This document shows, piece by piece, positions 32,702-36,036 of a DNA stretch of 46,508 bases (position 1 is its first letter; each line of letters starts with the position of its first letter). Below the pieces are notes generated by a model. It was given only the letters and a program-made list of their open reading frames with translations. It was not told the origin of the DNA and searched no databases. Source of the stretch: a virus; IMG/VR virus record IMGVR_UViG_3300042549_003140, positions 1 through 46,508 of that record; one strand, 5' to 3'. Both the position numbers and the translations under genes were made by a program.

Positions 32702-32838
32702 CAATCGTTCCTCCAACTCATCACGATACCACGACAGTACATCCAAGGGTCAGTTACCTCTTGGAACTTCTTGCCATCTAACACAGCACCATTAGCGAAC
32801 TGGAACCGCAGATCTTTTATTGCATCGTAATCAATCAA
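32701..32838 (-). CDS. 45-residue protein after the primase-helicase
   Basis: Starts at TTG with GGGAG seven bases upstream, four bases inside the primase-helicase stop region, and ends in a TGATG overlap with the membrane protein gene. The product reads MIDYDAIKDLRFQFANGAV, then DGKKFQEVTDPWMYCRGIV, with no known motif. Tight coupling on both sides makes translation likely. It is below usual length cut-offs and easily missed. Confidence 0.6.
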   Translation of the reverse strand: MIDYDAIKDLRFQFANGAVLDGKKFQEVTDPWMYCRGIVMSWRND

Positions 32839-33023
32839 TCGTCATCTCCCATATTGATATCAATAGGATCAAGTGTACCTGTACGTTGATCGTACTGGAG
32901 CTTGATACGTCTGGACTCACCGAACATCCGGTCTTCCAGTAACACAAGGTCACGTCTGTTCCGTTCTAGCGGATCAAGGTCAGGGTCTTTGTTCCCTTCC
33001 AAGCCCCACATCTGGTGGCAAAA
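32835..33023 (-). CDS. Primase-helicase exon 3 (C-terminus)
   Basis: 62 codons after the predicted splice site. FCHQMWGLEGNKDPDLDP, then ERNRRDLVLLEDR and SRRIKLQYDQRTGTLDPID reads like the end of T7 gp4 helicases. The exon ends in an acidic tail (NMGDDD), the part of gp4 that docks the polymerase. A GTG at 33026 would allow independent translation of a 63-residue peptide, but splicing of exon 2 to 33023 restores the full frame exactly. Confidence 0.8.
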   Translation of the reverse strand, partial: FCHQMWGLEGNKDPDLDPLERNRRDLVLLEDRMFGESRRIKLQYDQRTGTLDPIDINMGDDD

Positions 33024-33813
33024 CACTTAGTTAACTTCCATGTGTCCCATATTACTACGGGTATCGGACTATATCACGCTGCATAGCAGCCCTACCTTTT
33101 CGGGGCAACTCCTGTCACCCCTACTCTACTCCCTTCCAGCTACGCTGTGGTTTCGATAGTCTCTGCACGTTGATTACGATACTTAGTTTTCTTATCCCAG
33201 TTGTAGTGTTTGCTTATGTGTGTCCATGTTCTTCGTGCTCTGATGTTAAGAGCCGTTCCACGAGATACATTAAAAGCTTTCACCACATCCCCAGTTGTGT
33301 AACCGTATACATACATCCCACAAATAATACCGACAGCTTCGTCTGTTAACTCAGCGTTCCAATGGTCAGAACCCTTAGCCATCAGACCAAGTTCTTTTGC
33401 ATGTCGTTTGTTGTGAATGTCTGTGCACCACTCAAGATTACTAACGTGGTTATTCGTCTTGTCCCCATCTCTGTGATTAACAAACGGTAACTCGGACGGG
33501 TTATCAATCCAAGTGAGAGCCACCGCCCTGTGGACAGGGATGTGTTTATAACTCCCGTTGATCTTGCAAGAGAACCGGTAGTAACCATAGGCGTCTTTGT
33601 TTGTGCCTATGAATTTGTCGGTTATCTGTGACAGGATCTTACCAGAGTCACTCACTAAGTACTGAGTATTTAAAGGGAATGGTTTGTACATGATGCTGTT
33701 TCCTTGTAGTTGGCATAACAAGGATAGAGCGCATCACTAAGTATTGCAACCCTTCGCTCAGGATTGCCCGCTTGGGGTTTCCCTGAATTAGATAGGTTTT
33801 ACATGCGCCTTTG
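33024..33813 (-). ncRNA. Group I intron 2 in the primase-helicase gene
   Basis: 790 nt. The 5' exon ends ATGCGT, which pairs with the internal guide GCGCAT to form P1 with the expected U-G wobble. The P/Q core (33755-33785, containing GGGCAATCCTGAGC as in trnL-type introns), R (33154-33168, GTGCAGAGACTATCG) and S (33061-33077, GATATAGTCC) are all present, and the intron ends in G. The HNH ORF lies in the P6 region and runs into R. Splicing joins exons 2 and 3 in frame. Confidence 0.88.
33140..33691 (-). CDS. HNH homing endonuclease with NUMOD4 motif (intron 2)
   Basis: 183 residues from the ATG preceded by AGGA. The NUMOD4 part (FPLNTQYLVSDSGKILS) is followed by the HNH nuclease (VHRAVALTWIDNP...FVNHRDGDKTNNHVSNLEW). 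A C-terminal helix-turn-helix (TTGDVVKAFNVSRGTALNIRARR) probably binds DNA. Such enzymes cut intronless alleles and spread the intron. Its last codons contain the R element of the intron core, so coding and ribozyme sequence overlap. Confidence 0.9.
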   Translation of the reverse strand: MYKPFPLNTQYLVSDSGKILSQITDKFIGTNKDAYGYYRFSCKINGSYKHIPVHRAVALTWIDNPSELPFVNHRDGDKTNNHVSNLEWCTDIHNKRHAKELGLMAKGSDHWNAELTDEAVGIICGMYVYGYTTGDVVKAFNVSRGTALNIRARRTWTHISKHYNWDKKTKYRNQRAETIETTA

Positions 33814-34326
33814 ACGCATCATAGCACGGGAACCAGAGAACTGCACTGACTGTACCTTACCACCACGTTCGTGGGCAGGCCCACCTTGCGGTGCATTCAA
33901 GTGGCAGAAGATATAACCAGTGAAGTCTAACTCGTTCGCCATAGCAGCGAACTCGGAAGCTATGCTGATCAGTGTCTCGTTCTGCTCGGTGAGTGACATC
34001 CCTACTGTGAAGCAAGTGAGAGGATCAAGGAACACGTCCTTGCACCCAGCTACCAACACAGCAGATCGGATCTCTTGCTTCACGATAGTCCAATCAACAC
34101 CTTGGTACCCATCGTACAAGATCACCTTGTCACCTATGGCTGCCTTCCCTGCTTCGAACTGCTCAGGTGGGAACTCGATCTTCGGGTCCCAGAACACAGC
34201 ACGTACAGCCTTACCAGCTAACCGCTTCAGTGTACCACCCATCGGTTCCTCTGGCTTACAGAGGTACACCGGTGTGTCCTGTGTTGTAGCACAGAACGAG
34301 GCGATCTGATCAACGAGCACAGACTT
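33814..34326 (-). CDS. Primase-helicase exon 2 (helicase core)
   Basis: 171 codons between the two predicted splice sites. It begins KSVLVDQIASFC, the second half of Walker A, and includes VYLCKPEEP (motif 1a), KVILYDGYQG, VFLDPLTCFT (Walker B), YIFCHLNAPQGG (motif 3) and ends FSGSRAMMR, the start of motif 4. The open reading frame extends upstream to 34419 through intron sequence only. Order and spacing match the RecA-like helicase of T7 gp4. Confidence 0.87.
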
Positions 34327-35076
34327 CGATTTGTTCGACAGTGGTCGCAACCCACTGCCCGTTCTCTTATGAACTGCTGCATGTTCCCATGCAGTCCAGA
34401 CTATATCATCACCTCTCACGAGGGCTATGCGCTTCCATCACCATTGGCTTGTGATGTACTCCCTTGCGGGATAGTCGTTGCACCTTCCTTTGATATACGG
34501 TGCTTAGTACAAGCAACTGCGTTGTAAGTCACACCAACAGTCTCTGCTATCTCTCGATAACAAACACCAGATTGGATTAACTTAATACACAATTGTTTTT
34601 GTTCAGGGGTCATCTCTACTTTTCTTTTCATGTCACGCAACCCAGTATCTAAAGCGTGCTTTAAATTCTTTTCGTGAGTTGTCCATTCCAGATTGGCAGA
34701 TGTGTTGTTGTCTTTGTTCCCGTCTATGTGGTTCAGTATTGAATTACCTTCCACAGCTGGAACGAAATGTTCTGCCACTAACCTGTGTACAAACACACGG
34801 CTAGGTATCCCATCCCTACAAAGTGTTACTCGTGAATACCCTGTGCTGTTCTTGTCAACAAGCAACACATTACCACGAGCACCAACAACATACCCTTGAT
34901 CGGATACCTTATACTTCGGGTATCCCTTAACTTGTACTAGCATTTTATTTCCCCTTGTTATGACCTACAGTTCATATTACTGCATATGACAAGGGGAAGT
35001 GTATCAAAAGCTTGGCTCAGGATTGTCCGGTCTGGAGTTTCCCTGAGTTCACATAGTTTTACATGGGCTGCACTGA
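34327..35076 (-). ncRNA. Group I intron 1 in the primase-helicase gene
   Basis: 750 nt. The 5' exon ends ATGGGT, pairing with guide GCCCAT (P1, U-G wobble at the splice site). The P/Q core (35010-35045, GGGAAACTCC then GACAATCCTGAGCC), R (34470-34484, GGTGCAACGACTATC) and S (34394-34410, GATATAGTCTGGAC) are present, a P9-like hairpin follows, and the intron ends in G. The intron interrupts the Walker A sequence between Gly and Lys, and splicing restores MGKS in frame. Only four GTAC sites occur in it, far fewer than in flanking genes, consistent with later acquisition. Confidence 0.9.
34425..34943 (-). CDS. HNH homing endonuclease with NUMOD4 motif (intron 1)
   Basis: 172 residues; AAGGGG lies seven bases before the ATG. 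KGYPKYKVSDQGYVVG (NUMOD4-like) is followed by the HNH motif (VHRLVAEHFVPAV...ILNHIDGNKDNNTSANLEW) and a C-terminal HTH (CYREIAETVGVTYNAVACTKHRI). It is a distant relative of the intron 2 enzyme, with the same domain order. The ORF is placed in the P6 region and its 3' end contains the R element of the ribozyme. Confidence 0.9.
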   Translation of the reverse strand: MLVQVKGYPKYKVSDQGYVVGARGNVLLVDKNSTGYSRVTLCRDGIPSRVFVHRLVAEHFVPAVEGNSILNHIDGNKDNNTSANLEWTTHEKNLKHALDTGLRDMKRKVEMTPEQKQLCIKLIQSGVCYREIAETVGVTYNAVACTKHRISKEGATTIPQGSTSQANGDGSA

Positions 35077-36036
35077 ACCCATCTTAACACCAGCACCGAA
35101 GTAATACACTTCTTTCCTGCGACGACCACGAGTAACCTCTGTCATCTCAGGCCAAGGCCAAGGCAGACCTTCTTGTACTACCTCTGTAGCTAAGTGCCAG
35201 ATCTCAGAAGATCGGTACGACATCGCGGAGATCTTCGCAGCTGTCTCGTACATCACAGCTTTGAATAGCTCATCATCACGACCAGCGATCACCATGTCGT
35301 TCGCATCCTTCAATGGAAGCGTAGCTACATGCACACCGGGGAGCAGCTTGGATACTGCCTGTACTGCCGATCGACCGGGGTCATCGTTATCGAACACGAG
35401 CACCACCTTCTTGAACATCCGTTGGATATCCTTGATGTGGTGGTCAACATCACGAGTAGCACCCTTACAACCAGAGCGGAGGGAGATCACAGATGGATTA
35501 CCTGACCCGTTCCACTTCCGCTTCAGCACAGAGAACAACGCTATCGCATCGTCCTCTCCCTCTGTGATGAACAGTGTGTACTTATCACCGTACCGCATTG
35601 CCTGTTGCCAGCCGAACATATCACAGCCACGGGTACTACCTACACTGAACATCTGCTTTGTGTTCGTCTTACATTTATAGCCTTTGAGTTCTGTCTTCGT
35701 GTAGTACGGATAGAACCGAGAGACAGGAGTTACCCCGTCGAACTCGGATAACCCTACTCGTACCCCGAAGTACTCCAGTGCTCTACGAGACAGCTTCCGT
35801 TCAGGGATCTCGTGAGCAACCATCTCTGTGATCTCTTTGATCTCAGCAGCTATTTCATCAGGTGTTTTGATTGTCATTGTACGGGTCGGGGGTGCTTGTC
35901 CCTCACCGTACGGATGCTTCTCATATGTACCACAACGGAAACAATACCCGTCGTACTCACCATCATCCCGCAAGAACACTTGGAGGGAGCGAGTCCCTCC
36001 GCATGAGTGCGGTAGCTTCTCTACACAAGTGCTCAT
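35077..36036 (-). CDS. Primase-helicase exon 1 (primase domain)
   Basis: 320 codons; ATG overlaps the ATP-grasp stop with GGAGG before it. An N-terminal zinc-binding part (His10, Cys12, Cys32, Cys35) reads template trinucleotides. The TOPRIM domain has FITEGEDDAIAL (Glu159) and VLVFDNDDPGRSA (Asp216, Asp218). The helicase begins near the end, where FGAGVKMG is the first half of Walker A. Five more codons of intron follow in frame before a stop, so an unspliced message gives only a primase fragment. Joined to exons 2 and 3 it makes 553 residues, close to T7 gp4. Confidence 0.9.

Follow-up and report, generated by a model that had tools for sequence, protein, structure and literature searches.

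We analysed a primase-helicase gene in a 46,508-base virus record (IMGVR_UViG_3300042549_003140; the whole record is hereafter called the window). The gene is interrupted by two inserts, intron 1 in the Walker A motif (P-loop) and intron 2 in the later GSRAMMR motif, each of which contains an open reading frame (ORF) of the HNH type; introns and exons all lie on the minus strand (Table 1). The three exons are collinear and correspond to consecutive parts of phrog_239, and the spliced frame of 1662 nt encodes a primase-helicase of 553 amino acids (aa) with no internal stops.

Table 1. Features of the interrupted primase-helicase gene, in order of transcription, with positions in the window (a caret marks an exon junction)
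Feature	Position	Strand	Description
Exon 1	36036-35077	-	960 nt, 320 codons; primase part, TOPRIM, up to Walker A ...GVKMG; Toprim_2 match (Pfam); PHROG 239 positions 50-369
P1 exon strand, intron 1	35082-35077	-	AUGGGU, last base = U of U.G pair
Intron 1	35076-34327	-	750 nt, group IA-type, between G320 and K321, Walker A (MG^KS)
Internal guide, intron 1	35068-35063	-	GCCCAU; P1 100% paired, one GC<->CG covarying pair
P6a hairpin, intron 1	34998-34944 (approximate)	-	UUCCCCUUGU...ACAAGGGGAA, pairs the Shine-Dalgarno sequence of the ORF
HNH ORF of intron 1	34943-34425	-	172 aa; HNH_3 41.0 bits; I-HmuI (1u3e) E 6e-16
R-to-S core, intron 1	34476-34399	-	R = P7 5' strand, from 34476; S GATATAGTC 34407-34399
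Exon 2	34326-33814	-	513 nt, 171 codons; helicase domain, Walker A Lys to GSRAMMR; PHROG 239 positions 372-544
P1 exon strand, intron 2	33819-33814	-	AUGCGU
Intron 2	33813-33024	-	790 nt, group IA-type, between R491 and F492 (GSRAMMR^FCH)
Candidate P10, intron 2	CAAAG 33813-33809 with 3' exon UUUUG 33023-33019	-	by eye
Internal guide, intron 2	33808-33803	-	GCGCAU
HNH ORF of intron 2	33691-33140	-	183 aa; HNH_3 24.8 bits (cut-off 24.8); I-HmuI E 2e-8
R-to-S core, intron 2	33161-33067	-	R from 33161; S GATATAGTC 33075-33067
Exon 3	33023-32835	-	189 nt, 62 codons + stop; PHROG 239 positions 547-602

Both junctions are gapless when compared with four intronless homologues (L008-L011, from Zobellviridae of Melvirus type; GVKMG^KSV and GSRAMMR^FCH), and the residue pairs G320-K321 and R491-F492 are invariant in that alignment. 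By the same alignment the intron and exon coordinates given in a first-pass annotation of this DNA were all right, including the in-frame joining of exons of 320, 171 and 62 codons and the placement of the two introns within conserved motifs. One could alternatively suppose that the gene is not spliced at all, the HNH genes being free-standing insertions and the helicase working as split polypeptides. The exon-1 ORF does run only a few codons into the first intron before it reaches a stop, and the depositors of two related phages annotated three separate coding sequences (CDSs) for this gene (hypothetical proteins in HP1, L003, NC_048630.1; three DNA primase/helicase CDSs in HSd1, L002, PQ867849.1). 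However, the breaks fall inside Walker A and GSRAMMR, the junctions are base-exact relative to intronless genes, and a full covarying ribozyme core has been kept in both introns, which makes a split, unspliced helicase barely credible.

The elements expected at the splice sites and in the core of a group I intron, as noted in the first-pass annotation, are present in both introns: the U.G pair at the 5' splice site in P1 and the terminal G, which are also found in the relatives, and P4, P6 and P7 (the P/Q/R/S elements). The fold was drawn with helices P1, P3, P4, P5, P6, P7, P7.1, P7.2, P8 and P9, and also P9.1 and P9.2 for intron 1, and pairs were counted on alignments from which the ORFs had been excised. 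In the set consisting of intron 1 and 10 relatives, 95.0% of cells are paired and 27 of 61 pairs are changed on both sides, a result matched by none of 500 shuffles, and slid-structure controls pair about 40% or less. The compensatory changes of this set fall in P3, P5, P6, P7.2 and P9.2; P7 is invariant in these introns and hence uninformative by itself. Among the site-2 introns (three sequences), 98.4% of cells are paired and 9 of 43 pairs are changed on both sides. On this predicted fold, supported by covariation, both inserts are group I introns with a covarying pseudoknotted P3/P7 core together with P4-P6 and P8. Group IA introns are marked by the extra helices P7.1 and P7.2, located between the 5' strand of P7 and the 3' strand of P3. 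These are helices 7-9 of the intron 1 set, where 6 of 9 pairs have changes on both sides, and helices 7-8 of the site-2 set, where the support for P7.1 is weak. Because P7.1 and P7.2 are present, we class both introns as group IA.

Both ORFs begin in the P6a loop and extend into the ribozyme core, the tail of the intron-1 ORF crossing the P7 5' strand, P7.1 and P7.2, and the 3' end of the intron-2 ORF lying inside the core (P7 5' strand and P7.1). Both align to I-HmuI (PDB 1u3e) from near their N-termini (phmmer), both match PHROG 59, and both are open, with the signature NH..DG.K.NN...NLEW intact and a Shine-Dalgarno-like sequence ahead of the start. Judged by this homology, both are I-HmuI-like HNH homing endonucleases. 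The P6a hairpin of intron 1 has a computed stability of -20.6 kcal/mol (z -3.45), with 0 of 200 shuffles equally stable; a hairpin over the Shine-Dalgarno sequence of intron 2 was not significant (z -1.33). In T4, hairpins cover the ribosome site of intron endonucleases (PMC2988022). A further observation concerns the DNA-polymerase intron of Salmonella phage Vi06 (L098:2544-3020), a T7-like phage. Its core and that of intron 1 are 81% identical; its endonuclease ORF is a different one and closes with the core-encoded tail that also ends the intron-1 HNH ORF (75% over 20 aa).

We conclude, with little room for doubt, that two group IA introns interrupt the primase-helicase of this Melvirus-like phage (Zobellviridae); they carry I-HmuI-like HNH ORFs and are expected to be self-splicing and mobile. 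The observations that carry this conclusion are the exon structure, the splice junctions at empty sites, the covarying core, the HNH families of the ORFs and, as described below, the same-site introns of relatives. Several points weigh on the other side. The covariation at site 2 is drawn from just 3 sequences, and because the counted structure was made from the window introns themselves, its comparison with slid versions is biased towards it, in cells paired more than in compensatory changes. The first-pass annotation had assigned to each intron an HNH ORF with a NUMOD4-type start, of which the ORFs stand, whereas the NUMOD4 model (Pfam, cut-off 23.4) gives only 14.4 bits for the intron-1 ORF and no reported match for the intron-2 ORF (20.0 bits were obtained for the site-2 relative in HSd1). 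Finally, the Rfam model RF00028 has no match at its gathering cut-off on the window. At a looser setting, intron 1 scores 29.7 bits (cut-off 50; E 6e-5 for 3.3 kb) and intron 2 yields fragments only.

At the Rfam threshold this is formally the outcome that the first-pass annotation had named as refuting its introns, a covariance search without group I cores at either site; the insertion of the ORFs explains the miss. Rfam does not find the window introns at the cut-off because the ORF in P6a splits the core. We rejected the miss as a sign that the introns are absent, given that relatives lacking an ORF, at the same sites or nearby, pass RF00028 with 56.8-83.3 bits (HP1 at both places, HSd1 at the P-loop and phage RIO-1 at site 2). 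The same trouble, with partial matches divided by endonuclease loops, was met in a published survey (PMC11878797). With both introns missed at the cut-off because their ORFs keep the score below it, endonuclease-bearing group I introns are under-counted.

According to the proposed mechanism, the guide GCCCAU or GCGCAU would pair with the last six bases of the exon, and the P7 site would bind GTP and then the terminal G, so that two guanosine-initiated transesterifications would join exons 1, 2 and 3 into a message for the intact 553-aa enzyme. The HNH endonuclease encoded in the P6a loop would nick or cut the allele of a co-infecting phage that lacks the intron, close to where the intron inserts, and repair of that allele would copy the intron across. 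Splicing, cleavage and homing are in this case expected by analogy with the families to which the introns and ORFs belong.

IMG/VR relatives were sought with full-length homologues; exon 2 with intron-derived residues gave only weak matches, which resembled intron 3' cores. Site 1 (between G320 and K321) is occupied in the window, in L020 and in KZY1-k141_1938105 (L005), and also, with the same AUGGGU/GCCCAU guide, in the more distant helicases L140, L143, L144, L156 and L159. Site 2 (between R491 and F492) is occupied in the window, HSd1, HP1, RIO-1 and L053; RIO-1, HP1 and L053 have one and the same site-2 intron, without an ORF, and the window and HSd1 versions keep related endonucleases. 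A third site lies within codon V317, 10 nt upstream of site 1, and is used in HP1, HSd1 and L053, and in Klebsiella phage Z1 the P-loop codon aligned by eye to 319 is split by an intron; the P-loop has at least three insertion points in phages. No intron was found in the genes of L008-L011 and L018. The search of genome contigs gave no cellular or prophage relative, and the plasmid search gave one weak core match. Whether the neighbouring P-loop sites exclude each other, both being occupied in 0 of 12 genes, was considered and set aside, the numbers being too small.

The guides of the two introns also occur elsewhere. AUGGGU/GCCCAU, continuing into AUGUAAAA, is found after STMG^CRT and PMG^CR, and after RQMG (L111, L154, L168, L147; L121); by their motifs, the STMG^CRT and PMG^CR genes look like anaerobic ribonucleotide reductase and the RQMG gene looks like terminase, and the 3' exon of the RQMG-site intron was not found. 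Vibrio phage JSF38 (L006) and Erwinia phage VL73 (L097) have introns with intron-1-type cores and the GCGCAU guide of intron 2; in T7-like primase-helicases, these introns follow GATGCGT and separate the primase part from the helicase part.

The first-pass annotation had further proposed that one of the two introns may have been derived from the other within the gene, and had read the sequence shared after their guides as a sign of kinship. The proposed derivation is not supported. The cores of intron 1 and intron 2 are 57% identical, and each is far closer to introns of other phages: the intron-1 core to the L020 site-1 intron (86%) and the Vi06 intron, and the intron-2 core to the site-2 introns of HSd1 and HP1 (79%). 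The site-2 introns form a branch of their own (support 1.000). The sequence GCATGTAAAAC, or a near variant of it, is present in introns of site 1, site 2 and the linker, and because the introns of many phages have it, it marks a wider intron family and not a parent-offspring pair. An ectopic transposition within the gene, for example by reverse splicing, would account for the local similarity of the two introns from P1 to P5 (83% over 59 nt) and for the presence of AUGUAAAAC after both guides. However, the L020 site-1 intron is similar to intron 2 to the same extent (82% over 62 nt), so the 83% is not specific to the pair, and the AUGUAAAAC motif is widespread after the guides of this family. 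The ORFs, too, are 34% identical over 94 aa, as against 58% between the intron-1 ORF and the L020 HNH ORF and 53% between the intron-2 ORF and the HSd1 site-2 endonuclease. Taking these comparisons together, we regard an origin of one intron from the other as very improbable, and recent spread within the gene is contradicted; an ancient event of this kind, before the site-2 branch, may have occurred.

The occupancy of the sites in relatives bears on mobility. Between HP1 and RIO-1 the gene is 97% identical, and the P-loop intron is present in HP1 only; of the 47 differences across the whole gene, 4 fall no further than about 6 nt from the insertion, a clustering that is expected of co-conversion. 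L018, without an intron, and L020, with the site-1 intron, were recovered from a single metagenome and share 91% identity. Such patchy occupancy and marks of co-conversion in relatives are consistent with homing. It is also conceivable, although unlikely, that the window introns splice but no longer move, their HNH ORFs being relics and their inheritance now vertical. ORF-less introns are indeed frequent (site 2 in HP1, RIO-1 and L053; the upstream P-loop site in HP1 and HSd1), and the window differs from its same-site relatives about as much in the ORFs (53-58% aa identity) as in the helicase (55-66%). The intact reading frames, signature residues and Shine-Dalgarno-like sequences of both HNH ORFs argue against this. 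We do not claim a recent horizontal arrival in the window phage, because the divergence of the ORFs is similar to that of the helicase; the similarity of cores can reflect constraint.

A different kind of exchange is suggested by the P-loop intron of HSd1 (L002:2535-2819). Its first 39 nt are nearly identical to those of the HP1 intron (L003:2525-2835), with exons 57% identical, and its core is 98-99% identical to that of the L020 intron (L020:4405-5129), whose site is 10 nt downstream and whose exons are 86% identical; the breakpoint of the apparent chimera falls between P2 and P3. HSd1 and L020 are metagenome assemblies, and the simplest reading of them is that the HSd1 intron is a recombinant of neighbouring introns. 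We give even weight to the proposal that P-loop introns 10 nt apart swap their guide domain (P1-P2) and core, and can thereby be readdressed to a neighbouring codon without ectopic reverse splicing, the P-loop serving as a meeting place for the exchange. If true, the exchange of guide domains between neighbouring sites would be a route by which a group I intron changes its target.

The surroundings of the gene indicate the type of phage. Read against relatives, the gene order in the window is amidoligase, ATP-grasp, primase-helicase, sigma-like factor and DNA polymerase, and the best matches of the DNA polymerase are at 62-63% to oyster-derived Melvirus phages and at 52% to RIO-1. Because of this gene order and these polymerase matches, we place the window phage, as a marine-type phage, near Melvirus in the Zobellviridae. 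The window DNA polymerase also matches, full-length and at 56% identity, a gene annotated as 'RNA polymerase sigma factor' (L008:4435-6462, PQ867853.1 ORF17), an annotation that is likely to be wrong. A search of the window for a third intron by its S element found none, the two plus-strand matches looking like chance.

Phage introns favour conserved protein genes (PMC3984707), and phage introns of group IA that encode HNH endonucleases and lie in conserved replication genes are an already known kind. The site-2 intron is already annotated in RIO-1, whose depositors label the insert a group I mobile intron in the record, and the window introns are a well-supported addition. That a single essential replication gene holds two introns with endonucleases makes for a clean, testable case, and relatives in which the gene has no intron, one or two provide natural empty sites for homing tests. 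It also matters for annotation that in the records of sister phages the intron-split primase-helicase is broken into three CDSs.

Among known systems, the closest to intron 2 is that of the Pseudoalteromonas phages RIO-1 (NC_021300) and HP1 (NC_048630), where the primase/helicase gene, site 2 and the guide are shared and the core is ~79% identical. There the site-2 intron has 233 nt without an ORF, whereas intron 2 has its 183-aa HNH ORF; RIO-1 is without a P-loop intron, and that of HP1 lies 10 nt upstream of the site of intron 1. HSd1-k141_2165608 (PQ867849) resembles the window in having two introns in the same gene, with a related site-2 endonuclease, but its P-loop intron is ORF-less, lies 10 nt upstream and has a P1-P2 domain other than that of intron 1. 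L020 (IMG/VR 3300010372_000013) and KZY1-k141_1938105 share site 1 and the guide with intron 1, in contrast to the window, however, their genes have no site-2 intron, and the KZY1 ORF is shorter (109 aa). As in the window introns, the I-HmuI intron of a Bacillus phage carries a homologous HNH endonuclease ORF in a peripheral loop of the group I structure, although the I-HmuI and T4 introns occupy other host genes and insertion sites. The hairpin over the ribosome site likewise recalls the T4 introns, although in the window it is statistically marked for intron 1 only.

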